52,212 nt of DNA, taken from contig NZ_CANNCR010000029.1 of NCBI RefSeq assembly GCF_947503125.1, positions 1-52,212 on the forward strand, read 5' to 3'. The notes under the pieces are model-generated. The model did no database searches. It was not told where the DNA came from and worked only from the letters and a program-made list of their open reading frames with translations. Below are positions 2,925 through 20,643 of this stretch, one piece after another; position 1 is the stretch's first letter; each line of letters starts with the position of its first letter. The translations under genes and the position numbers were made by a program. Origin of the DNA: an uncultured Metabacillus sp. GTDB taxonomy: Bacteria > Bacillota > Bacilli > Bacillales > Bacillaceae.

Positions 2925-2992
2925 TGTTTTCTCCTTTCGTACTATGCTTTCTTAAAAATTGGAAGTATTTTTTGAGACCAATGCTATTATTA

Positions 2993-3060
2993 AGCAAAGA
3001 CAGACAATTCAACAATAGGATACAGATTCCGACTTTTTAAGTTGATATTTCTGGCATAAT
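2993..3060 (+). promoter_or_regulatory. Diverged, inverted copy of the AKR-cluster promoter element
   Basis: Read on the minus strand from 3060, this begins ATTATGCCAGAAATAT, as the copy at 10592 does, and has TGTCTG 54 nt further on, where the other copies have TGCCTG-like sequence at 49-51 nt. The implied -10 (GCATAAT, 3054-3060) points rightwards into 3061-3513, where no gene exists. It may be a relic of a lost target, or may act on the divergent cupin-CMD gene. It is weaker than the other four copies. Confidence 0.4.
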
Positions 3061-3513
3061 AGAAAATCTAAAATTTTAATTGTAAACCAAATAACATCTT
3101 CTATCTTGCAGGGCATCCGCCTTACCGAAATTCTAAAAAGGAAACTTTTAAAAAAACTTATTAGGCTATAGCATTTAGTTAGTTCAACAAGTTGAATGCA
3201 AAATAATTTTCATCTAGCTCATTATGTTCTTGGGTTGAAAAATTAATAATCCCCTCCTATTTTTAAAATATAGATTTTGGTAACCCCTTTGTTTTTAACA
3301 ATAAGCACTTTTAATTAGAAAAAGATTATAGAAAGATTAGAATATGATTAGAGTAATAGTGAAAATAAACCAATAAATAGTATCTCAATATTTAATCAAT
3401 AAAAACTTAATATTTCACGCTTTTTACGTATAAGCCCCATATAATATTACTGAGATTGATTGTTACATAAATTTAATAATAACCTTACAAAAAGTATTTT
3501 TTGCTAATCTACT
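3061..3513. other. Intergenic, no gene seen
   Basis: Very AT-rich sequence lies between the element at 2993-3060 and the stop codon of the MFS gene. Both strands were read and no open frame with a ribosome binding site or known motif was found. Confidence 0.4.
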
Positions 3514-8530: not shown

Positions 8531-9421
8531 TTAATAATGCTTATCTGTTTCATACGTATCTTTCATAAATTGAATAAATCTTGCGGTAGTAGGAGTAAAA
8601 ACTTTCGTGTTCTTCCAAATAAACAAACAGCTTGAAGTATATTCAGGGGAAAATGGCCTAAAGCAAGTATTTTCAATACCTCGAATCTCCATTACACTCT
8701 CAAGACAGATAGCATATCCCAAATGCTGTTGTACAAGAGCAGCTGCATTGTAAATTAGATTATATGTTGCAAAGACCTGTAAATTATCATAACGATTTCC
8801 AAACCAACCTGCTATCTCTTGTTGGACGACTGGTCGATTCGGAATAATTAATGGTAAGCCAACAACATCATCTGTCGTGACATATTCTTTCTTACTGAGC
8901 GCAGCATTGTTAGGCATAAGAATCCCCCATCTTTCCTGTTGGGGCAGCCTAATTGAATCGTATTTTTCAATATTAACTGGCGTTAGTAAAAGACCAATAT
9001 CTAGTAAACCTTTATCTATCTTTTCCCTAATATCATTCGCATTTCCAGTGTAGAGATTAAATTTAACTTGCGAATATTTTAAATGAAAAGTTTTTATTAG
9101 ATTAGATAAAATTTGTGAAGCCAATATAGACTCTACACTACCTATAGATATTGTCCCAGAAATATGGTTCTGTCCAACATCTCTTTCTATATTATCCATT
9201 AGAGTAAGAATTTCTTCTGCTCTTTGAGATAAAAGAACACCGTCCTCTGTCAATGTCACTCTTCTTTTTCCTCGTAAAAAGAGTTGTGTACCTAATTCTT
9301 CTTCTAATTGCATCAGTTGCCTGCTAAGAGTAGGCTGAGTGATATGTAAAATATCAGCCGCACGACTTATATTTTCTTCACGAGCAACTGTTAGAAAATA
9401 TCGAAGCACCCTTAATTCCAT
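8531..9421 (-). CDS. LysR-family transcriptional regulator
   Basis: This 296-residue protein has an N-terminal winged helix-turn-helix (about residues 1-60; ELRVLRYFLTVAREENISRA, then TQPTLSRQLMQLEEELG) and a periplasmic-binding-like effector domain (about 88-290). The ATG at 9421 follows AGGGGACATT; an upstream in-frame TTG (9436) overlaps that ribosome binding site and is rejected. It lies between an aldo/keto reductase gene and bglP, all on the same strand, and is separated from bglP by a terminator. It may control bglP or the reductase; the effector is unknown. Confidence 0.88.
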   Translation of the reverse strand: MELRVLRYFLTVAREENISRAADILHITQPTLSRQLMQLEEELGTQLFLRGKRRVTLTEDGVLLSQRAEEILTLMDNIERDVGQNHISGTISIGSVESILASQILSNLIKTFHLKYSQVKFNLYTGNANDIREKIDKGLLDIGLLLTPVNIEKYDSIRLPQQERWGILMPNNAALSKKEYVTTDDVVGLPLIIPNRPVVQQEIAGWFGNRYDNLQVFATYNLIYNAAALVQQHLGYAICLESVMEIRGIENTCFRPFSPEYTSSCLFIWKNTKVFTPTTARFIQFMKDTYETDKHY

Positions 9422-9536
9422 AATGTCCCCTGCCAATTTAGTATTAACTTGTTCTCAGTTTCAACCATTTTCATTTGATTCATACTATTGTTCCATCCCA
9501 CAAGTGGCCGTGTATTCGTATCTGGATAATCTTCAA

Positions 9537-10517
9537 TTAATTATGCCCAACGATTGGATGTGGTACATATGGCTCCTCCAGAAACGCAACTTCTTCAGGA
9601 GTTAACTTAATTGAAAAAGCACCTAAGGCATCTTCTAAATGAGCTATTTTAGTGGCTCCAATAATAGGAGCTGTTACAGGTTCCTTCTGCAACAACCAGG
9701 CAAGTGCGATATGGATACGTGGAACATTATATTTTTCTGCAATGGTTGCTACTCTTTCTACAACCAATCGATCAGCATCAGCGGTCGCATCATATTTAGA
9801 TTTTTGAATTTGATCTGTTTCTGAACGATACGTTGTTTCCGACCAATCACGAGTCAATCTTCCAGATGCGAGCGGACTATACGGTGTTACACCAATTCCT
9901 TCTTCCTTGCAAAGTGGTAGCATTTCTCTTTCCTCTTCACGGTATATGAGGTTGTAATGATTCTGCATTGATACAAACTTAGTCCATCCATTTTTGTCCG
10001 CTACGTGTAACGCTTTTTGAAATTGCCAAGCGTACATGGCAGAGGCACCAATGTATCTTGCCTTACCAGCCTTCACAATATCATGCAATGCTTCCATTGT
10101 TTCTTCAATAGGGGTATTGTAATCCCAGCGGTGGATGATATAAAGGTCTACATAATCAGTGCCAAGCCTCTTAAGACTCTTATCAATTTCGCTCATAATT
10201 GCCTTTCGCGAAAGTCCTGCACCATTTGGACCTTCATGCATACGACCATGGATCTTCGTTGCAATAACAACTTCATCACGGTTAGCAAAGTCTCTTAGAG
10301 CTCGTCCAAGAAATTCCTCACTAGTTCCCATTGAATAAACATTTGCCGTATCAAAAAAATTAATGCCACGTTCTAGGGCTTTTTTAATTATAGTTCGACT
10401 TTTCTCTTCATCAAGAACCCACTTATGAATCCATTTTTCTGCAACGCCAAAACTCATACAGCCGAGACAAAGCCGTGATACATCCAATCCTGTATTTCCA
10501 AGCTTCACATATTCCAT
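9537..10517 (-). CDS. Aldo/keto reductase (voltage-gated K-channel beta/YghZ-like subgroup)
   Basis: The 326-residue NADPH-dependent oxidoreductase has the AKR catalytic tetrad: D56 and Y61 (FFDTANVY), K88 (VIATK) and H129 (YIIHRWD). The C-terminal cofactor region PVTAPIIGATK is present. Such enzymes reduce aldehydes and ketones; the substrate cannot be told. The ATG at 10517 is preceded by GAGG at 9 nt; the in-frame GTG at 10532 overlaps that site, so it is not used. The gene is probably monocistronic and is preceded by copy A of the shared promoter element (10592-10690). Confidence 0.88.
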   Translation of the reverse strand: MEYVKLGNTGLDVSRLCLGCMSFGVAEKWIHKWVLDEEKSRTIIKKALERGINFFDTANVYSMGTSEEFLGRALRDFANRDEVVIATKIHGRMHEGPNGAGLSRKAIMSEIDKSLKRLGTDYVDLYIIHRWDYNTPIEETMEALHDIVKAGKARYIGASAMYAWQFQKALHVADKNGWTKFVSMQNHYNLIYREEEREMLPLCKEEGIGVTPYSPLASGRLTRDWSETTYRSETDQIQKSKYDATADADRLVVERVATIAEKYNVPRIHIALAWLLQKEPVTAPIIGATKIAHLEDALGAFSIKLTPEEVAFLEEPYVPHPIVGHN

Positions 10518-10591
10518 TTGATTATTCCTCACTTTCTTTTACTTGGTAAAGTCAATTTTTATTGTAGTTTATCATTATTTATTCACTACTA

Positions 10592-10690
10592 ATTATGCCA
10601 GAAATATAAAGAAGTCCTTATCCCATTCCTATCAACTTTTTGCCTAATCCTCTCACAGCATTTACATAATCGACGAATATGCTATAAAAT
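10592..10690 (-). promoter_or_regulatory. Shared promoter element, copy A (upstream of AKR 9537-10517)
   Basis: Written on the plus strand it contains ATTATGCCAGAAATATAAA at 10592 and TGCCTAATCCTCTCACA at 10641, 49 nt apart. Read in the direction of the minus-strand target gene, this gives a GAGAGGATTAGGCA box followed by a -10-like GCATAAT. Four comparable copies occur in the window. Confidence 0.65.
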
Positions 10691-10794
10691 GACTTTCAAA
10701 TAATCTCCAATGATTTTTCGCATGTGGCATATTATATATGGTCTTTCCAAAGTATTACTCCTTCTATAAAAAACAAATGATAGTGCTTACGATT

Positions 10795-10835
10795 GATATT
10801 AAAATTGCCCTGTATAACAGGGCAATTTTAATATC
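10795..10835 (-). terminator. Terminator after cupin gene
   Basis: An 18-bp perfect inverted repeat (GATATTAAAATTGCCCTG and its complement, loop 5 nt) overlaps the last stop codon base pairs. A/T-rich outer stems let it act in both directions. Confidence 0.75.
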
Positions 10836-11247
10836 AACTATTATTTACTTTGTTATATTCCTCATCTGATACTGGTTCCAACCATTCAGGAGTACCTGCA
10901 GTGATTGCTATATGTTCAAACCAGCTGTCTTTTGCGGCACCATGCCAGTGTTTCACACCATCGTGAGTGACAATGACATCGCCAGCTTTTAAGAATTGAG
11001 CAGGTTTTCCTTCTTCTTGGTACCAACCTTCGCCGCCAGTTACTAATAAAATTTGAAATCCATCACGATGGATGTGCCAGTTATTTCTGCATCCCGGTTC
11101 AAAAGTCACATTCCCAACACCAACGCTGACTTTAGGATCAGACACTAATCCTTTAAGATAACTTTGTCCCACAAAAAATTGTGAAAATGGATTTTTTTCG
11201 CCTACGGGGAAAATAACGCCATTTTTAACTTCTTCATGTTTCGCCAT
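10834..11247 (-). CDS. Small cupin-domain protein
   Basis: This 137-residue single-domain cupin has metal-ligand motifs NNWHIHRDG and HWHGA, and the ending GTPEWLEPVSDEEY is seen in cupins that accompany CMD and reductase genes. The ATG at 11247 has GGAGG at 8 nt; a longer in-frame start (11298) has no such site and adds an unrelated extension. It lies 82 bases behind the AKR gene 11330-12193 and is probably co-transcribed with it. Its cupin half resembles that of the secreted fusion at 1755-2924. Role: perhaps a sugar/aldehyde isomerase or binding protein; unproven. Confidence 0.85.
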   Translation of the reverse strand: MAKHEEVKNGVIFPVGEKNPFSQFFVGQSYLKGLVSDPKVSVGVGNVTFEPGCRNNWHIHRDGFQILLVTGGEGWYQEEGKPAQFLKAGDVIVTHDGVKHWHGAAKDSWFEHIAITAGTPEWLEPVSDEEYNKVNNS

Positions 11248-11329
11248 TTTGGTTCCTCCAATAAATATCATTAATATTTTTAGCCTCCTGCTGAGCAATT
11301 GCTAAAAAAAGTCGACATTTATTACTTGT

Positions 11330-12193
11330 TTACTTTAATTTCCCGCCAAATACCGGAAAGAAGCTATGCTCACCATAATTCTGGATCTGCTCTACATTCT
11401 TCAAAGTTTCCATATCTGCAGCGCTGATAACAAAATCAAGCTCTGCATTGATTCTCATGTGATCTGGATTTGCTGTCTTAGGAATTACTACAAGACCAAG
11501 CTGGATATCATAACGTAGGCAAAGCTGAGCAATAGAAACTCCATACTTATCAGCTATTACCTTAATCTCTGCATTATCGAGAACCGCACCGTGTGCAATT
11601 GGTGAATAGGCCTCTACCAAGATGCCATTCTTCTGACAGAACTCGATTAGTTCCAAAGGAGTATTGCTCACATGTGCCAATATCTGATTTACCATTGGCT
11701 TGATTTCACAGCTTGCAAGAATATTCTCTATATCATCCTGAAGGAAGTTAGAAAGACCGATTGCCTTTACCTTGCCTGTCTTATAAGCATCCTCCATTGC
11801 TTTCCATACTTCTTTGTTTTCCTCGAAGTAACGGTTCTCTTCACGGAACTCCTTCCAAGGCTGAGGACTGTGAATAATCAGAAGATCAATGTAATCCAGT
11901 CCCATCTTTGCTAAAGACTCATCAATGGACTGCGTAACTGCATCATAGGTCTTTGCTTCTGCAGCAACCTTTGTCGTAATGAAAAGTTCTTCTCTTGCGA
12001 TACCGCAGGAACGGATTCCTTCGCCTACACCTGCTTCATTCATATATGCCTGCGCAGTATCAATATGGCGATATCCGATAGATACCGCATCACGCACTGC
12101 CTGCGCTGCTTGTGCATCATCAAGCAGCCAGGTACCAAGACCTAATATTGGAATTTCTATATCATTTGATAATTTGTAAGTTTCATTAAACAT
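11330..12193 (-). CDS. Aldo/keto reductase (2,5-diketo-D-gluconate reductase-like)
   Basis: The 287-residue AKR has tetrad D45, Y50 (HIDTAQAY), K75 (ITTKV) and H108 (LLIIHSP), plus cofactor motif LGLVVIPKTANPDHM. It is closest in look to the DkgA-type subgroup, which reduces 2,5-diketogluconate, methylglyoxal and other aldehydes. The GAGGAG site 9 nt before ATG supports the start. The coding sequence looks richer in G/C and in C-ending codons than its neighbours, suggesting acquisition from another Firmicute; this is an impression, not a computed value. No copy of the shared promoter element was seen upstream. Confidence 0.88.
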   Translation of the reverse strand: MFNETYKLSNDIEIPILGLGTWLLDDAQAAQAVRDAVSIGYRHIDTAQAYMNEAGVGEGIRSCGIAREELFITTKVAAEAKTYDAVTQSIDESLAKMGLDYIDLLIIHSPQPWKEFREENRYFEENKEVWKAMEDAYKTGKVKAIGLSNFLQDDIENILASCEIKPMVNQILAHVSNTPLELIEFCQKNGILVEAYSPIAHGAVLDNAEIKVIADKYGVSIAQLCLRYDIQLGLVVIPKTANPDHMRINAELDFVISAADMETLKNVEQIQNYGEHSFFPVFGGKLK

Positions 12194-12311
12194 GGTTTTG
12201 TCTCCTCTAAATTGTTATATTTTTTGTAGTACCTTTTCTTATATACTAGGTTTTTCCATTTTTTATTAGGAATTTCTTCAAATAAAACAGAGATGCTTGA
12301 CTCTCCAGCGT

Positions 12312-12407
12312 TTACTTATCTTTGAAAGTTTGAACAATCTTATCATAAAGTTCTTTCTTTGGTTCATCAGTCCTGCTGGGTAAATATTTAACAATAATGT
12401 GTGGCAT
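12312..12407 (-). pseudogene. Truncated 4-oxalocrotonate-tautomerase-type gene
   Basis: A 31-codon reading begins MPHIIVKYLPSRTDEPKKEL and stops after FKDK. This is the N-terminal half of a tautomerase of the 4-OT family, which has about 60-75 residues; Pro2 (Pro1 after Met removal) is the catalytic base. The following sequence, in frame or nearby, does not resemble the rest of the family, so the gene is truncated. It starts 16 bases behind the CMD gene, the usual partner of such tautomerases. Only a weak ribosome binding site (AAGAGAA) is present. Confidence 0.65.
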
Positions 12408-12423
12408 CTCTTATTCTCTTTTC

Positions 12424-13179
12424 TTACTTTTCAGGAATAATTTCATTAACGCAAGCTAATGCGTTCAGAGTTCTCGGAAAACCCATATATGGAAGGCAAT
12501 GAGTAATTGCGGCAATCATTGTTTCTTTGTCGTTGCCGACATTTTTGTTTCCTTGCACATGTGCCTTCACTTGACCTTCAGCACCGCCTAAGGCGCTAAC
12601 GATACACAGAGTAAGTAACTCTCGCGTTTTCAAATCTAGTCCACCACGAGTGTAAAAATCTCCGAAACAAAAAGCGGAAAGATATTCTTGTATATGCTTT
12701 TGATTTGCCGGAGCTGATTCTTGCATTCTTTTAATCACATCTCCAAAAATCTCTGTTTGAACAGCAAATCCTTTCTCGAAACGGTTATCTTCAGTTACAG
12801 TCTTTTGGCTTTCAATTGGTAAAGCTATATTCTTTTCTTTGAAAACATCATTGACTTCGTTGAGGGCATTTAATGTTTTGGGAAATCCAATGTAAGGAGC
12901 ACACTGATAAACAGCCTCTTTGATTTCTACAGGTGTGAGCCCGACGTTTAGTGCGGCTCCTACATGTGCCTTAAGTTGTGGTAACGTCTGGTTCGCGGCA
13001 AGCACAACCAGAGTGATAAGTTCACGTTGCTTGTCATCCAGATTCCCTTGAGAAAAAACCTCTCCAAAAATAAAGTGGCTAAGAATGTCCTGAAAATCAG
13101 GATCAGTAGCGTATGCGGCTGGTACTCCATTTCCAAATAGCTGCTTGTACTTTTCCTTGCTCTTTTCTACACGGTCCAT
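12424..13179 (-). CDS. Two-domain carboxymuconolactone decarboxylase (CMD) family protein
   Basis: The 251-residue protein is two CMD helical repeats: about 25-110 (ELITLVVLAANQ, LKAHVGAALNVG, PYIGFPKTLNAL) and about 145-250 (ELLTLCIVSALGG, VKAHVQGNKNVG, PYMGFPRTLNAL). Both keep the KAHV histidine; neither has the CxxC of AhpD peroxidases. Relatives act on lactone or quinone-like compounds, but many are uncharacterised. GGAGG is 6 nt before ATG. It is divergent from a TetR gene with paired palindromes between, so TetR repression is likely. The broken tautomerase gene follows in the same transcript. Confidence 0.88.
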   Translation of the reverse strand: MDRVEKSKEKYKQLFGNGVPAAYATDPDFQDILSHFIFGEVFSQGNLDDKQRELITLVVLAANQTLPQLKAHVGAALNVGLTPVEIKEAVYQCAPYIGFPKTLNALNEVNDVFKEKNIALPIESQKTVTEDNRFEKGFAVQTEIFGDVIKRMQESAPANQKHIQEYLSAFCFGDFYTRGGLDLKTRELLTLCIVSALGGAEGQVKAHVQGNKNVGNDKETMIAAITHCLPYMGFPRTLNALACVNEIIPEK

Positions 13180-13259
13180 ATATAACCTCCTGTTTGAAGT
13201 TTATTTACATTTATTATTCCAAAAATTAGCTAAACATGATGCTATAAAAATTAATATTG

Positions 13260-13346
13260 ATTGATTAATCAACATCTGTTAATAATTATAAAAAAGCCAT
13301 TCATACTTTCAATGGTTAGATTAACGCAATTCGTTGATTACTCAAC
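13260..13346. promoter_or_regulatory. Paired palindromes in the CMD/TetR divergent promoter
   Basis: Two matching dyads, ATTGATTAATCAAC (13260-13273) and GTTGATTACTCAAC (13333-13346), share the form RTTGA-N4-TCAAC, and a lone half-site GTTGATTA sits at 13362-13369. They flank the centre of the divergent intergenic region and are likely sites for the adjacent TetR protein. Confidence 0.65.
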
Positions 13347-13394
13347 AGAACAATTAAAATTGTTGATTATCTTTAGAAAGATTGGTGAATTAAA

Positions 13395-13940
13395 ATGTCT
13401 AAAGTAGATAGAAGAATAGCCAAAAGCCAAATAGCTATAAAAAGTGCTGTAACTGAACTAATGTCCGAAAAAAGTTTTGACAACATTACCATTCAGGATA
13501 TTGCTGACAGAGCAAATGTTAATCGAGGAACCATTTATCTTCATTACACGGATAAATACGACCTCCTGGATAAGATGATAGGAGAACATATAGACAATCT
13601 CCGAGAACTATGCCAATCAGCATCTGAGATGACATTTCAAGAAGGAAATTATGTCTGGTATGAATACTTTGAACGTAATTATTTATTTTTTTCAACGATG
13701 TTAACGAGTAAAGGTGCACCATATTTTCGCAGTCGTTTTCTTGATTTAGTCATCGAAGAGTTTAAAGCTGAAGTGGATATAGAAATAGGAAAAAACTACG
13801 GATTAAATAAAGAAGTTATTCTTCAATTTTTTGGCTCGGCGGTCGTTGGGGCAGTGGAATGGTGGTTCAGAAATGAAATGCCTCTGTCAGCTCGTGACAT
13901 GGCTGAACAAACCGGTGCATTGTTAGATAGGAATCTATAA
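13395..13940 (+). CDS. TetR-family transcriptional regulator
   Basis: The 181-residue protein has a typical N-terminal TetR HTH (about residues 10-55: ITIQDIADRANVNRGTIYLHY) and an all-helical C-terminal ligand domain of the type common in Bacilli and Lactobacilli. It is transcribed away from the CMD gene, with dyads at 13260-13346 suited to repressing both genes. Its stop codon directly abuts the remnant of a cupin gene on the other strand, marking an ancient deletion joint. The inducer is unknown; an electrophile or aromatic compound would fit the neighbours. Confidence 0.88.
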   Translation: MSKVDRRIAKSQIAIKSAVTELMSEKSFDNITIQDIADRANVNRGTIYLHYTDKYDLLDKMIGEHIDNLRELCQSASEMTFQEGNYVWYEYFERNYLFFSTMLTSKGAPYFRSRFLDLVIEEFKAEVDIEIGKNYGLNKEVILQFFGSAVVGAVEWWFRNEMPLSARDMAEQTGALLDRNL

Positions 13941-14047
13941 GTGGGAACTAGCATTTCAAGAAATGCTGCCCCTATGAAATGGCCATTCGAAACTTTTACA
14001 CCTTTCGGGAAGATAACACTTTCACTTTTATCATGAATAGTAGACAT
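13941..14047 (-). pseudogene. N-terminal remnant of a cupin gene
   Basis: From an ATG at 14047 (AAAGGA upstream) the reading gives STIHDKSESVIFPKGVKVS and then GHFIGAAFLEMLVP. This matches the beginning of small cupins like the one at 10834-11247 (GVIFPVGEKN... QSYLKGLV). After about 35 residues the frame runs into the antisense of the TetR gene, so the barrel and all metal ligands are missing. It still has copy B of the shared promoter element in front. Confidence 0.6.
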
Positions 14048-14099
14048 AGTAGAGAACATCCTTTCCAAGAATTGTTTTTATGGTATAGCGCGTAACTTT

Positions 14100-14182
14100 A
14101 TTATGTAACAAATGGAAAAACAGACCGTTATCTCGATTATCTTAAATCCTTGCCTGATCCTCCCGAAACCACTTACGCAACA
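14100..14182 (-). promoter_or_regulatory. Shared promoter element, copy B (upstream of cupin remnant)
   Basis: On the plus strand: ATTATGTAACAAATGG at 14100 and TGCCTGATCCTCCCGAA at 14151 (51 nt apart), then ACTTACGCA. Spacing and sequence match copies A, C and D. It now drives only a truncated cupin frame. Confidence 0.65.
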
Positions 14183-14208
14183 GACGAATGTTGCTTATTA
14201 ATGGGAAG

Positions 14209-14238
14209 GCGTGTGGATTCATAATAGAATTCACACGC
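14209..14238. terminator. Hairpin downstream of AKR 14326-15177
   Basis: Stem GCGTGTGGATTC / GAATTCACACGC (one mismatch), loop 6 nt. It lies about 90 bases past the AKR stop codon. On the plus side it is followed by TTTATAT; on the minus side the T-run is poor. Confidence 0.45.
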
Positions 14239-14325
14239 TTTATATAGATTTAACACCTTAAAACATCTCCAACAGGATTAGGTGGGAAAACTCACCTCAG
14301 AATATTGAATTGATTAGAAGGAACA

Positions 14326-16219
<1,894 letters not shown>

Positions 16220-16280
16220 TTATGTTTTAGAGCCATACAATAGACATCAGGTGGAATAGTATGATTAACTCAGTAACCTT

Positions 16281-16360
16281 ATTATGCTACAAATGAAAAT
16301 GGCCTTGGTATCACATTCGTATCAAATGATTGCACAATCCTCTCACAACCATTTACGCAG
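16281..16360 (-). promoter_or_regulatory. Shared promoter element, copy C (AKR operon / regulator divergent region)
   Basis: On the plus strand: ATTATGCTACAAATGAAAA at 16281 and TGCACAATCCTCTCACA at 16331 (50 nt apart), then CATTTACGCA. In the direction of the AKR operon this is a GAGAGGATTGTGCA box followed by a GCATAAT -10 without a good -35, as expected for an activator-dependent promoter. It adjoins the AraC-type regulator gene. Confidence 0.7.
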
Positions 16361-16419
16361 AAAGTAAATTAGCTTTATAATGGGACAAACGCAGATGAAG
16401 AAAACAAAGGAGGGATTTT

Positions 16420-17337
16420 ATGTTTGAACAATTATATAGACAAAGAGTTGAACTTTCACAAATCATAGAGAGTCACACAGGAAAGGACGGGACTCAAATG
16501 ACTTCCATTCCGTCTTTATTTTTCTCCCGTTATTCTAATGAAACTGGACCAAATTACGGAGTTCACAAGCCTTCCTTATGTATTGTCGTTCAAGGGATGA
16601 AGGAGGTATTGCTTTCACAGGAACGCTTCAGATACGGTCCAGCCGATTACCTTGTTGCATCTGTTAACCTGCCAATTACTGGACAAGTCACTGAAGCCTC
16701 TTCCGAAGTTCCTTATCTGGCTCTTAAACTTGAATTCACTCCGAGTGAAATATTAGAGGTGTTACGTGAATTCCAAATGGCAGTTGACAAGAAGGAGAAT
16801 GCTAAACGAGGTATGTATGTCAGCAAAATAGAACAACCTTTACTAGACGCGGTAACAAGATTAGTTCGTTTGCTTGATACACCGAAAGATATCAAGGTAC
16901 TTGCTCCTCTAATCAGAAAAGAAATTATCTACCGGGTTCTGCAAGGAGAACATGGGGGGATGCTGAAACAAATAGCAATAGAAGGAAGTTCTACGCATCA
17001 AATCAGTGACGTGATTAAACATATCATGAATAACTATGAAAAGTCTTTTAAGATAGAAGAGCTTGCGGAATTAGCAAACTTGAGTGTTTCTTCGCTTCAT
17101 AGGCACTTTAAAGAGGTTACTGCGATGAGTCCAATCCAATTCCAAAAGCAACTAAGACTTCAAGAAGCTAGAAGCCTGCTGCTATCTGAGTCATCGGATG
17201 CAGCAGATGTTGCCTTCCGGGTAGGCTATGAAAGTCCATCACAATTCAGCCGAGAATATTCGCGCATGTTTGGTTTACCGCCAAAAGAAGATATAAAGCG
17301 CATGAGGGAACAATATGACCAAAGGGTAAAAGCTTAA
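16420..17337 (+). CDS. AraC-family regulator, YqhC type
   Basis: The 305-residue protein has an AraC_N-type sensor domain (about 20-180; IVVQGMKEVLL, YLVASVNLPITGQV) and a C-terminal double HTH (about 200-300; KIEELAELANLSVSSLHRHF, DAADVAFRVGYESPSQFSREY). The closest known relative by architecture is E. coli YqhC, which activates the aldehyde reductases YqhD and DkgA in response to reactive aldehydes. Position beside two AKRs supports the same role. GGAGGG precedes the ATG. It is the best candidate to bind the element found at 10.6, 14.1, 16.3 and 19.1 kb. A bidirectional terminator follows. Confidence 0.88.
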   Translation: MFEQLYRQRVELSQIIESHTGKDGTQMTSIPSLFFSRYSNETGPNYGVHKPSLCIVVQGMKEVLLSQERFRYGPADYLVASVNLPITGQVTEASSEVPYLALKLEFTPSEILEVLREFQMAVDKKENAKRGMYVSKIEQPLLDAVTRLVRLLDTPKDIKVLAPLIRKEIIYRVLQGEHGGMLKQIAIEGSSTHQISDVIKHIMNNYEKSFKIEELAELANLSVSSLHRHFKEVTAMSPIQFQKQLRLQEARSLLLSESSDAADVAFRVGYESPSQFSREYSRMFGLPPKEDIKRMREQYDQRVKA

Positions 17338-17400
17338 TTTCCCTTTACGTGGGTTTCTTCAATTTATCAATTATAGTGGGACATTCGCTTTAAATAATGA

Positions 17401-17440
17401 AAAAAGTGCATGAATCTAATCCCGGATTCATGCACTTTTT
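17401..17440. terminator. Bidirectional terminator
   Basis: A perfect 16-bp stem, AAAAAGTGCATGAATC and its complement, with an 8-nt loop, sits between the convergent AraC and DUF4405 genes. Confidence 0.88.
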
Positions 17441-17451
17441 CAATCTGCAAT

Positions 17452-18141
17452 TTATCTATCTTTGTACGCCAAAGCTTTATCTTGCTTCCGAACAAATTTC
17501 AGAGCATAATGAGTCCCACTGATATATATTCCCATGATAGCGAGATGATCGATTAAAAATCCCACGGAAGACTCATCAAAGCTCCAACCGAATGGATTAT
17601 ATATGGTTAACCTAGAAAGCATATCTCTCTCAAAAGAAGTCTGCACACCATAGACAACAATCAACACCGCTATGACACGTAACGCAATTGTGAGAATTCG
17701 GCTCGTGCTGGTAATCCCCGTCATTTTTCGTACTGCATTAATAATTGTCCCCCAGGACATTCCTATATGCACAGCCATCAAGATAAATCCCCAATATGAA
17801 GTCATAACATGTATCTGTAATAGCATCATGTCATTGTTTATAGGAATAAAGGCAAAGATGTTACGGGAAATTGGCACAGAACTTAGCATCACTACAGCCA
17901 TAGATACGAGAAAAAGTAAATTGACCGCAATGCTCAGAATACGCCTTACATTGTGCTTTCCTTTAAAAATTGTCTTATACCATCTTCGATTTAAAAAATT
18001 ATGAGTAATAAACAGCAAAAACAATATAACTCCTACCAGTTCATGGATTGTATTTCCGGTAATTTGGTAAGCCATTGCAACTAACATCAGAACGGTCATA
18101 GAAAGATCAACAACCAGCCTAATTAACATATTTCGTTTCAA
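17452..18141 (-). CDS. DUF4405 membrane protein (cytochrome b561-like)
   Basis: This 229-residue membrane protein has about six hydrophobic helices. Paired intramembrane histidines (H33 in TIHELVG, H47 in ITHNF, H111 in LQIHVM, H125 in AVHIG) match the DUF4405 family and could ligate b-type haem. It probably passes electrons across the membrane. The start is taken as TTG at 18141, 6 nt behind AGAGGAG; the ATG at 18129 is too far from that site and the TTG at 18159 is upstream of it. It is co-transcribed behind the haem lipoprotein 18242-18964, its likely outside partner. Confidence 0.75.
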   Translation of the reverse strand: MKRNMLIRLVVDLSMTVLMLVAMAYQITGNTIHELVGVILFLLFITHNFLNRRWYKTIFKGKHNVRRILSIAVNLLFLVSMAVVMLSSVPISRNIFAFIPINNDMMLLQIHVMTSYWGFILMAVHIGMSWGTIINAVRKMTGITSTSRILTIALRVIAVLIVVYGVQTSFERDMLSRLTIYNPFGWSFDESSVGFLIDHLAIMGIYISGTHYALKFVRKQDKALAYKDR

Positions 18142-18241
18142 GAAGTTCTCCTCTTTCAAATTTAATTAACAGTTGGGTAAGTTTTCCATCAGGACGCACT
18201 TATTAAATCGATTTCCGCCCAAATGCTCAATCCTATGTCAC

Positions 18242-18964
18242 TTAATTAAAATGAATCATTAAAAGAACCTTTTGGATGATCCCAGCTTTTTCTTTATCTT
18301 CTATTAAGCTCTTTCCAAGCAAATGATCCTGTGAGTCCTCTTTTACCACCCAGTGATCGGTAGGGATACCTGTGATTTGGGATTCTGTACCGTTATCCTT
18401 TGATCCTGTAAAATTTTCAAGATCATAACTCTTCATTTCATCCAACGTGTTAACATATTCATCCCGTTCTTGATTCGCATGGCAGGTAAAGCAGCGACCG
18501 ATATCTTCTTCATAATCCAACGATCTGTCAGCATTGAATTCCTGGTATTGCCAATCTCCGTTACGTGGTGTCCCTTGCGGTGTTTGGTCTCCCCAACCAG
18601 CACGCTTTTCCATCACGAAGATTTCATCAAGCACTTCATCTCTATATATTTCGAGAGTGATGACGGTGCCATCAGGAAATGGCTGCCCGTTCTGCACTGC
18701 TTCGATTGCTTCTCGGCTCGTGTAGAGTTCCTCTCTGACATTTCCTCGATGGACTGTCGTGTAGTTCACACCCTTATCGTAGTTCTCAGGGAATTTAACA
18801 AGTTCACGATCGTACCCGGATTGTTCCTGTTGGGAAGTGTCACCAGATGGCACCTGTTGCGATATCCCATTTGTATTATTATTATTATTATTATTATTAT
18901 TGTTGCATGCCGTAAGAGTGAGGGACATCACCAATGCAAGGGACGGAAATAGTCGATTTTTCAT
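18242..18964 (-). CDS. Cytochrome P460-like haem lipoprotein
   Basis: This 240-residue exported lipoprotein has a signal peptide with lipobox LTAC (Cys20), then ten asparagines in a row, a hydrophilic linker, and a P460-type domain (about 60-165). That domain has YRDEVLDEIFVMEKRAGWG followed by one c-type haem site CFTCH (C158, C161, H162). It would be anchored on the outer face of the membrane. The pair with DUF4405 suggests an electron path from outside to a membrane b-haem protein, or the reverse. Copy D of the shared element precedes it, linking it to the aldo/keto reductases. The reaction is unknown. The C-terminal tail looks irregular. Confidence 0.75.
   Translation of the reverse strand: MKNRLFPSLALVMSLTLTACNNNNNNNNNNTNGISQQVPSGDTSQQEQSGYDRELVKFPENYDKGVNYTTVHRGNVREELYTSREAIEAVQNGQPFPDGTVITLEIYRDEVLDEIFVMEKRAGWGDQTPQGTPRNGDWQYQEFNADRSLDYEEDIGRCFTCHANQERDEYVNTLDEMKSYDLENFTGSKDNGTESQITGIPTDHWVVKEDSQDHLLGKSLIEDKEKAGIIQKVLLMIHFN
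18875..18904 (-). repeat. AAT trinucleotide repeat encoding poly-asparagine
   Basis: Nine AAT codons plus one AAC directly after the lipobox cysteine code for Asn21-Asn30. Slippage here would change spacer length in whole residues without breaking the frame. Confidence 0.9.
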
Positions 18965-19112
18965 TATTGCTTTCCTCCTAAAAATTATTCGTATTTATAT
19001 CGGTTTTTACAATTAAAATTTGTATAAGATTCTGCCATGTGGTGCTGTGTTTAGAACCATGGGTATTATTTTTCAATAGAATAATAGTTATAGAAAAAGC
19101 AGAGGCATTTTT

Positions 19113-19200
19113 ATTATGCAACAAATGAAAAATCGACCGATATCCTATTCCTCTCAAATATTTGCCTGATCCTGCCATAATAAAATTTTAAGCTTTACGT
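19113..19200 (-). promoter_or_regulatory. Shared promoter element, copy D (upstream of P460/DUF4405 operon)
   Basis: On the plus strand: ATTATGCAACAAATGAAAAA at 19113 and TGCCTGATCCTGCC at 19163 (50 nt apart), with TATCCTATTCCT between. It shares the left half almost exactly with copies B and C. It lies about 150 bases before the lipoprotein gene. Confidence 0.65.
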
Positions 19201-19463
19201 CTGTTGATTTTCATAAAATTACAAATAGCTTCGTATCGTATAATATACTAGAATGGCCTGACTTAACTGCTATATGTCATGACAGTACCATTGGAGTAGC
19301 ATTAGGTCATCCCCTATGAAAACAATCAATATATAGAGGAAGAAGAGAGTGACTTAGTATGAAGAGATTACGCCAAGTCAATTTCGGGATGCCTATACCA
19401 ATATCTTTATTAAAATAATGTGAAATTTTAATTCCTTCACATTTATCCATTTTTTCTGCCCAT

Positions 19464-19496
19464 GAAGAAAGACCATCTTTTTGATGGTCTTTCTTC
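19464..19496. terminator. Strong hairpin, probable old terminator
   Basis: A 14-bp perfect stem, GAAGAAAGACCATC and complement, with a TTTTT loop. It sits about 35 bases downstream of the AraC-like remnant on the minus strand. Confidence 0.6.
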
Positions 19497-19531
19497 AAAG
19501 GGTAAAGCAAGTTGCCTCGCTTCACCCCTTT

Positions 19532-19650
19532 CTATCGATTTACATATAACGCATTATCCACTGACGAAGAATATTGTTGAGTTTTACAATATTTTATTCG
19601 ATAATCTGATGGAGCCATTCCAGTTTTCCCTAAAAATATTACAGACTCAA
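19532..19650 (-). pseudogene. Possible AraC C-terminal remnant
   Basis: The minus-strand frame reads FLGKTGMAPSDYRIKYCK near its end. This resembles the closing signature of AraC-type DNA-binding domains (F-K-K-x-T-G-M-x-P-S-x-Y-R). The upstream part does not hold together in any one frame, so it would be a decayed gene. The resemblance is short and the call tentative. Confidence 0.35.
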
Positions 19651-19899
19651 CTTGAATCGGTTTATTTAAGTGAGTCTTGCTTAGTTCGAAAATTTCAAAT
19701 AACGGCTGGATCACTAATGTTTGCATTTTTTTCTCATAAAAACGGCAATTTGTTCGATCAGCCTCTCAATGCGTGACTATTTAATGAAATCGTGTTGTTA
19801 AAGATAAATTTAAAAGCATAATCTATCAGATGTATTTCATAAACAGGATTCTGTTTTCGAGATTTTTCCCCAATTCTTTTTATATTTTTAATTAATTGT

Positions 19900-20643
19900 T
19901 TAATCAGCAACAATATATTCTGTACCGTCAAGCTCTGGAATGTGTTTATTCGTTATAAGAATACACTCATGAATTTCAAAAGCCTTACAAAATGTACTTT
20001 TATTAAATTTAGAAGCATCTGTTAGGACATAGCACTTTTTTGAGTTCGTTTTTACAATACTTTTTTTGCTTGCTTCTCGAATATCTGGTGTATTTACGCC
20101 CACATTTACACCAAAACCGTTAGCCCCAAGAAAAGATTTATCAAAATTTAAATTTCTCAGAGTAGTGTCTGTTAGCGGTCCTGAAATTGAATCTATATTT
20201 TTATTAACATCGCCCCCAACAACCATAATGTTTCCAATATGATAACCATTTGCCTCATTTAAAACTTGTATATTTGATGTAACGATTCTTACACCTTTTG
20301 CTTTGATATATTTGACCATTGCCGAACATGTCGTACCCGAATCAATGTAAATGACATCATCATCCTCTACCATAGATGCAGCGAGTTTTGCAATTTTTTC
20401 TTTACTCTCTTTATTAAGCAACTTCTTTGTACCCACAGGAATTTCATGTGAGTCCAGCTTTAATTTAACTGCTCCACCTCTTAATAGGACAATATAGTTT
20501 TCATCTTCAAGTATTTTTAAATCTCTACGAATGGTAGATTCAGAAACCCCATCAAAAATTTTAACTAAATCTTCGATATATAGGATTTGTTTATTTTCTA
20601 GTTCATCCATTATCTTTTCTCTTCTGACATAAGGGATCATCAT
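19900..20643 (-). CDS. DeoR-family sugar-responsive repressor
   Basis: The 247-residue protein has an N-terminal DeoR HTH (about 5-58; RREKIMDEL, GVSESTIRRDLKILE) and a DeoR sensor domain (about 75-230; DVIYIDSGTTCSAM, VVGGDVNKN, FLGANGF). The sensor usually binds a sugar phosphate. It is the last gene of the sugar ABC operon, 93 bases behind the kinase, and is expected to repress that operon until the kinase product appears. Two tandem ATGs (20643 and 20640) follow a GAGG; either may be used. Confidence 0.88.
   Translation of the reverse strand: MMIPYVRREKIMDELENKQILYIEDLVKIFDGVSESTIRRDLKILEDENYIVLLRGGAVKLKLDSHEIPVGTKKLLNKESKEKIAKLAASMVEDDDVIYIDSGTTCSAMVKYIKAKGVRIVTSNIQVLNEANGYHIGNIMVVGGDVNKNIDSISGPLTDTTLRNLNFDKSFLGANGFGVNVGVNTPDIREASKKSIVKTNSKKCYVLTDASKFNKSTFCKAFEIHECILITNKHIPELDGTEYIVAD

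Follow-up and report, generated by a model that had tools for sequence, protein, structure and literature searches.

A tandem-repeat promoter element ahead of aldo-keto reductase and P460 haem lipoprotein genes in an uncultured Metabacillus as the predicted operator of a YqhC-type regulator

We analyzed a stretch of 52,212 nucleotides (nt) from an uncultured Metabacillus sp. (contig NZ_CANNCR010000029.1 of assembly GCF_947503125.1; hereafter the window, meaning this whole stretch), in which one promoter element occurs four times. The four copies, boxes 1 to 4, precede minus-strand genes with little in common: an aldo-keto reductase (AKR) gene, a truncated cupin gene, a pair of AKR genes, and a pair encoding a cytochrome P460-family lipoprotein and a DUF4405 membrane protein (Table 1). 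Box 3 lies between the AKR pair and a divergent gene for an AraC-family regulator related to Escherichia coli YqhC. The boxes are very probably the docking sites of this nearby YqhC-related regulator, as predicted from their sequence and distribution. Both the positions and orientation of the copies, as seen when they are aligned along the direction of their genes, and the genes behind them agree with a preliminary description of this DNA. The truncated cupin aligns to residues 1-38 of a 142-residue cupin encoded at the equivalent place in a relative.

Table 1. Boxes, genes and promoter-like stretches of the locus. Bit scores are those of model R2 (see text), which itself contains these copies.
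Feature	Position	Strand	Details
Box 1	10592..10655	-	distal half-site 10640-10655, proximal half-site 10619-10634, -10 CATAAT 10592-10597; upstream of AKR 9537-10517; 58.1 bits
Box 2	14100..14165	-	distal half-site 14150-14165, proximal half-site 14129-14144, -10 CATAAT 14100-14105; upstream of truncated cupin; 52 bits
Box 3	16281..16345	-	distal half-site 16330-16345, proximal half-site 16309-16324, -10 CATAAT 16281-16286; between divergent AraC gene and AKR 15215-16198; 60.3 bits
Box 4	19113..19177	-	distal half-site 19162-19177, proximal half-site 19141-19156, -10 CATAAT 19113-19118; upstream of P460-DUF4405 pair; 64.9 bits
YqhC-like regulator, AraC_N (PF06719) + HTH_18	16420..17337	+	Pfam 180.8 bits; sole cysteine Cys54
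Divergent sigma-70-like promoter of regulator	16352..16381	+	TTTACG-18-TATAAT; beside box 3
Aldo-keto reductase, box 1 target	9537..10517	-	
Truncated cupin, box 2 target, probably dead	13946..14059	-	38 N-terminal residues
Aldo-keto reductase, box 3 target	15215..16198	-	
DkgA-like aldo-keto reductase, second gene behind box 3	14326..15177	-	45% identity to E. coli DkgA
Cytochrome P460-family lipoprotein with CxxCH, box 4 target	18242..18964	-	
DUF4405 polytopic membrane protein, behind P460	17452..18141	-	
Apparent remnant of regulator-side promoter	10661..10690	+	TTTACA-18-TAAAAT; beside orphan box 1
Apparent remnant of regulator-side promoter	14172..14201	+	CTTACG...TTATTA; beside orphan box 2

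Each box is a tandem direct repeat with a period of 21 nt, which reads in the gene direction TGAkAGGATTAGGCAA and then TGATAGGAATGnGATA. The proximal half-site is followed by a variable T-rich spacer and, in all four window boxes, by a CATAAT -10 hexamer that starts 54, 56, 55 and 55 nt from the distal AGGAT in boxes 1 to 4, respectively. Among offsets of 5-39 nt, self-similarity is highest at 21 nt, both in the five sites of this genome (0.325, next best 0.162; the fifth site is described below) and in 40 sites of other genomes (0.297, next best 0.149). The preliminary description had reported two conserved blocks. These are present, and correspond to the spacer and -10 region (ATTATG, which is CATAAT on the other strand) and to the distal half-site, but the proximal half-site 21 nt further on had been overlooked. 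The copy at 10592 fits the first block poorly (ATTATGCCAGAAATA), but has both half-sites and the -10. A gap of about 35 nt had been given between box and -10; the distance from the GGCA of the distal half-site to the -10 is in fact about 43-45 nt. A poor -35 had also been described; a simple consensus scan paired none of the four -10 hexamers (0 of 4) with a matching -35, which is compatible with dependence on an activator.

Class II activators of the AraC/XylS type (AraC at araI1-I2, MelR and RhaS) use two direct-repeat half-sites about 21 nt apart that abut or overlap the -35. The half-sites and -10 of the boxes have the geometry of such a site: direct repeats about two helical turns apart, the proximal one abutting or overlapping a poor -35 and standing at a fixed distance from the -10. 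They differ from the known class II systems in their sequence and in the N-terminal domain of the regulator (AraC_N, PF06719). In the mechanism that we propose, two regulator subunits would sit on the same face of the DNA, one at each half-site of the 21-nt tandem repeat, the proximal subunit would abut or overlap the poor -35 as in class II activation, and RNA polymerase would use the conserved CATAAT as its -10.

The element is specific within the genome. A degenerate 20-mer, allowed up to 2 mismatches, matched 6 times, the boxes accounting for four of these; 1.87 matches were expected, and a count of 6 was reached in none of 100 shuffles. This 20-mer was composed from the copies themselves, and a less circular test is a genome scan with R1, a sequence-only model of the four window copies. 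The scan covered the 5.44 Mb and 244 contigs of the assembly, with 150 of the 4095 first-look candidates scored with R1. Besides the four training copies, it found one further box, on another contig, C62 (E 2.5e-17); the next match had E 0.0185. The fifth box lies in a divergent intergenic region, with an AKR gene on one side and an AraC paralogue, 70% identical to the window regulator, on the other. The assembly encodes exactly two PF06719 proteins, namely these two regulators, and each adjoins a box. The remaining boxes (10592, 14100 and 19113) are less than 6 kb from the window regulator, and each of the five strong boxes precedes a gene. The protein predicted to act on the window boxes is most likely the one encoded beside box 3, and the paralogue on C62 could share them.

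Boxes and regulators also occur together in relatives. We compared 60 genomes, this one included, counting a box at R1 E ≤ 1e-4 and a regulator at E ≤ 1e-60 (the Fisher p values given here are not corrected for kinship). Both were found in 15 genomes, the regulator only in 2, the box only in 3 and neither in 40 (p = 1.8e-9). For the 21 genomes of the genus the corresponding numbers are 11, 1, 3 and 6 (p = 0.009). With a looser threshold for R1 (E ≤ 0.01), 22 of the 60 genomes have a box, and a second model, R2, matches 16 of the 21 genomes of the genus at E ≤ 0.001. R2 was built from 41 sites, five from this genome and 36 from others: 50 sites outside this genome have E ≤ 0.01, the best 40 of them (E ≤ 1.4e-5) served for the consensus, and 36 of these 40 entered the model. 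Nearly half of the 50 sites (24) adjoin an AraC gene, two of these 24 adjoining fragments. The scan of this genome and its relatives, which had been suggested as a check, thus found the motif and YqhC-like genes together. In two genomes (L101 in G002 and L106 in G007) the gene that follows a box is a Mob_Pre plasmid-recombination gene, whole or in part; these boxes are perhaps relics near a mobile element.

We extended the comparison to named loci, the best 80 of the 579 relatives that were found by tblastn with an alignment of regulators. They span Bacillaceae, Paenibacillaceae, Sporomusa, Lucifera, Sulfobacillus, Pseudomonas and Myxococcota, and at least one of them (L147) comes from a genome that was also used in R2. 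At 61 of the 80 loci the 300 nt upstream of the regulator match contain an R2 box (E ≤ 1) that points away from this match, 53 of these boxes having E ≤ 1e-4. Their position is narrow, with 42 of the 61 at 66-80 nt from the regulator, as measured to the start of the tblastn match and not to a verified start codon. All 53 boxes with E ≤ 1e-4 fall among the 67 loci outside Pseudomonas and Myxococcota. Another 16 matches at E ≤ 1e-4 lie elsewhere in the loci, many of them preceding AKR, P460 or major facilitator superfamily (MFS) genes. A core matrix was then applied to the 25 loci where R2 had given no box (19) or a weak box (6); in 23 of them its best match in the whole locus fell in the upstream 300 nt. 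When whole genomes were scanned with R2 for 16 of the named loci, 13 had a match at E ≤ 0.05; in the Pseudomonas genome of L188, the sole such match (E 0.0195) is, by its coordinates, the regulator's own site.

The distance to the -10 is conserved along with the half-sites. Of 45 sites (the five from this genome and 40 others), 33 have the start of the -10 at exactly 55 nt. For the named loci, we counted -10 hexamers and targets on the 77 of 83 hits with E ≤ 0.02; NATAAT/C stands at exactly 55 nt in 60 of the 77 and at 54-56 nt in 66. Boxes in relatives precede genes for three classes of AKR, MFS transporters, short-chain dehydrogenases, flavodoxin-like reductases, a cupin-CMD pair and others. 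In one Sporomusa genome (L167, L218, L219 and L220), nine boxes at E ≤ 4e-4 are spread over three contigs and adjoin at least three regulators of this type. This regulon is larger than those seen in the bacilli of this study.

The best-known member of the family is E. coli YqhC, with which the window regulator shares the PF06719 N-terminal domain, the AraC helix-turn-helix (HTH) and 39% identity over 256 aligned positions, in keeping with its earlier description as YqhC-like. In the second HTH, the residues that read the DNA (GYES.SQFSRE..R.FG) are almost invariant, E. coli YqhC included. The yqhC-yqhD intergenic region of strain MG1655 contains GAGAAATAGGCAAGACATTGGCAGAAATGAG. In the 5.5-kb locus this is the top match with R2 (8.8 bits, E 0.01), and it ranks first of 10,928 positions with the core matrix. 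We regard this as the same operator, on one sequence with a modest score and identical -10 spacing. A CACAAT starts at 55 nt, measured as for the other boxes. According to excerpts of PMC6115493, which cites Lee et al. 2010, the yqhD promoter has the -35 TTGAGA and the -10 CACAAT, so the spacing is that of the window boxes.

The two systems share further features. In both, an AraC_N and HTH regulator is divergent from aldehyde or aldo-keto reductase genes, and the second gene is dkgA-like. They differ in that the first gene encodes the YqhD reductase in E. coli and an AKR in the window, where no yqhD-type alcohol dehydrogenase adjoins the regulator; we therefore speak of a YqhC-type regulon and not of a yqhC-yqhD-dkgA locus. 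The window also has a P460-DUF4405 target that the E. coli regulon lacks, and its genome has four boxed promoters here, one on another contig, and two regulators, against a single target in E. coli. In excerpts of the literature, genomic SELEX (gSELEX) describes YqhC as a single-target factor that binds only this one place in E. coli (PMC8249747), its in vivo sites by ChIP-exo show a sequence-specific pattern (PMC8464067) and RegulonDB is said to list activator sites for the yqhC operon region (PMC13052891). The E. coli site itself is thus probably already known in part. Among the part of the listed titles that we covered in one open-access collection, none dealt with the operator or with a YqhC regulon in Bacillota, and we did not meet conservation of the operator outside Gram-negatives in that literature. 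The 2010 study by Lee and colleagues reportedly mutated a SoxS-like target site.

The repeat architecture, the -10 spacing, the specificity within the genome, the linkage to the regulator, the conservation as far as E. coli yqhC-yqhD and the recurrence at P460 genes are all visible in the sequences compared. Because a fifth box stands at the paralogue, boxes and regulators co-occur, the box keeps a narrow place upstream of the regulator, its half-sites repeat at 21 nt and E. coli has a match, a shared regulatory site for the YqhC-like protein, as the preliminary description had proposed, is strongly supported, and on this comparative evidence the site and its regulator are nearly certain. That the four elements are operators of a YqhC-type AraC-family activator, with the architecture and targets described here, is in our view the best explanation of the whole, with a probability of almost nine in ten. 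The targets would be AKRs together with a c-type haem lipoprotein of the P460 family, situated outside the cytoplasm, and the DUF4405 membrane protein paired with it; the cupin target is broken here.

Several observations weigh against this explanation. Three of the 60 genomes (G007, G016 and G020) carry boxes without a regulator even at E ≤ 1e-25. Within the genus, G015 has a weak R2 box (E 9.7e-4) and no regulator match. The box of G018 is only weak (E 4.4e-4), and in G048 a distant regulator occurs with no box. No R2 box was found at the tested place in 19 of the 80 named loci; for two of these (L183 and L185) the core matrix, too, has its best match elsewhere. Six Pseudomonas loci (L196, L197, L198, L199, L201 and L204) have their best core match oriented toward the regulator gene. 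Whole-genome R2 scans found nothing at E ≤ 0.05 in 3 of the 16 genomes (those of L187, L189 and L201). The E. coli match is weak when taken alone (8.8 bits, with E 0.01 for 5.5 kb). In the 60 genomes, four of the seven P460 genes lack a box. Finally, box 2 serves a broken gene and may be a relic, and boxes 1 and 2 could persist partly by descent.

This last point bears on the strongest alternative, namely that the boxes are similar merely because promoter regions were recently duplicated, some of them being non-functional relics. Part of the locus does have such a history. The far side of boxes 1 and 2 carries a TTTAC...TATAAT-like stretch resembling the regulator promoter at box 3 and on C62, which box 4 lacks. 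Because these apparent remnants of a regulator-side promoter are kept, the two boxes look like former divergent control regions from which the regulator gene was lost, and one regulator now faces several orphan promoters. Box 2, moreover, drives a truncated gene. Compared with relative G019 (L088, 5172-7371), which has an extra unit of box and MFS gene, the window lacks about 2 kb including the MFS gene, unless this segment is a gain of G019. The overlap of the two aligned blocks lies within box 3 (16278-16333), as would be expected for recombination between two boxes. Operators may in this way act as recombination points that shuffle members of the regulon. However, the half-sites and the -10 distance are kept across species while the intervening letters vary, and boxes precede unrelated genes and occupy the corresponding place at E. 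coli yqhC-yqhD. We therefore consider duplication on its own an unlikely account.

It is far less likely still that the sites serve a global factor or another regulator of the window. A TetR gene (13395, by Pfam) and a LysR-like gene (8531-9436, by translation) do lie within or beside the cluster, but it is PF06719 genes that adjoin the fifth box, 24 of the 50 sites in relatives and the boxes of 61 of the 80 named loci, and PF06719 that co-occurs with the box. TetR proteins usually recognize palindromes, whereas the direct repeat of 21 nt resembles the sites of AraC proteins. As an intergenic repeat some 75 nt long with conserved blocks, the element might also be taken for a regulatory RNA that is transcribed, or for a mobile repeat. 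We dismiss this as least probable of all, since the element is upstream of the -10 and hence outside the expected transcript, an Rfam scan of 9000-20000 gave no match at gathering score, and the assembly has only five strong copies, each preceding a gene.

For the YqhC-type regulon, the homology to YqhC and the nature of the target enzymes make control by aldehydes or related electrophiles likely. We infer binding of the regulator, activation of the promoters and a signal of this kind; Cys54 is a candidate sensor. This residue (codon 16579-16581) is kept in 79 of 83 sequences (the 80 loci, which are the closest homologues only, the window regulator, the C62 paralogue and E. coli YqhC). The exceptions are three with Gly and E. 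coli YqhC, which has Ile, a further point against our explanation. Excerpts of PMC6115493 contain reporter data in which E. coli YqhC responds to aldehydes. Since it does so without Cys54, this residue is not a universal mechanism, and we propose it as a sensor for the Cys-bearing majority of homologues. A 2017 review, as excerpted, describes direct action of electrophiles on YqhC as unclear (PMC5297802).

The preliminary description had extended the regulon to the haem protein. This arrangement is real and recurs in Bacillaceae and Paenibacillus, even though some P460 genes lack a box. At the named loci all five P460 genes (in Fredinandcohnia, Neobacillus and three Paenibacillus) have their own box 29-189 nt upstream, but these loci were chosen for their regulator and are a biased sample. 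In the 60 genomes the box is found at three of the seven P460 genes, the one in the window included, which brings the total to 8 of the 12 P460 genes examined. A DUF4405 gene adjoins the P460 gene in all 12. DUF4405, on the other hand, is not always paired with P460, as L127 and L104 contain DUF4405-like pieces with no P460 gene in view.

The window P460 protein has a lipobox and matches PF16694 with 52.2 bits (cut-off 27). Its CxxCH motif is C-terminal and invariant in 12 of 12 P460 sequences, and its profile matches structures of cytochrome P460 and P460-fold cytochromes c (PDB 7s5o, 6hih and others) through the CxxCH region, the best five with E 6e-14 to 2e-8. It differs from these proteins in being a Bacillota lipoprotein with a DUF4405 partner and a YqhC-type box. 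For DUF4405, a profile search of solved structures gave no convincing relative (best E 0.09). The AlphaFold models of both proteins have a mean predicted local distance difference test (pLDDT) score too low for fold comparison (48.4 for P460 and 57.9 for DUF4405). We infer that electrons could pass from the membrane through DUF4405 to the haem outside. Behind the P460 lipobox, an (ATT)n tract (18873-18906) encodes a poly-Asn linker; the relative at L088 has a shorter run of Asn, so the length may vary.

Other features of the neighboring DNA were also recorded. AT-rich palindromes with TTGATTAATCAA-like cores lie at 13243-13360 between the divergent CMD (12424) and TetR (13395) genes and are possible TetR operators. 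A perfect 21-bp inverted repeat resembling a terminator (10793-10837) lies between box 1 and an intact cupin gene at 10834. Weak R2 matches on the plus strand at 9435-9487 and 2989-3061 were judged to be chance or relics.

A broader proposal, which we hold only tentatively and think rather doubtful, is that the YqhC-family proteins of Bacillota, Pseudomonas and Myxococcota are for the most part cysteine-based sensors of electrophiles, in which the sole and nearly invariant Cys54 of the sensor domain reacts with reactive carbonyls. One operator, conserved across phyla, would then switch on a defense in two compartments: cytosolic reductases and MFS transporters on the one hand, and on the other an extracytoplasmic P460 haem lipoprotein that receives electrons from DUF4405.

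The boxes provide a precise and predictive operator for a family of regulators known mainly from one E. coli promoter, and YqhC-type regulons become readable from Gram-positive genomes. The single conserved Cys54 makes direct action of electrophiles testable in many homologues, and the P460-DUF4405 pair gains a regulatory context and, with it, a physiological role that can be tested.

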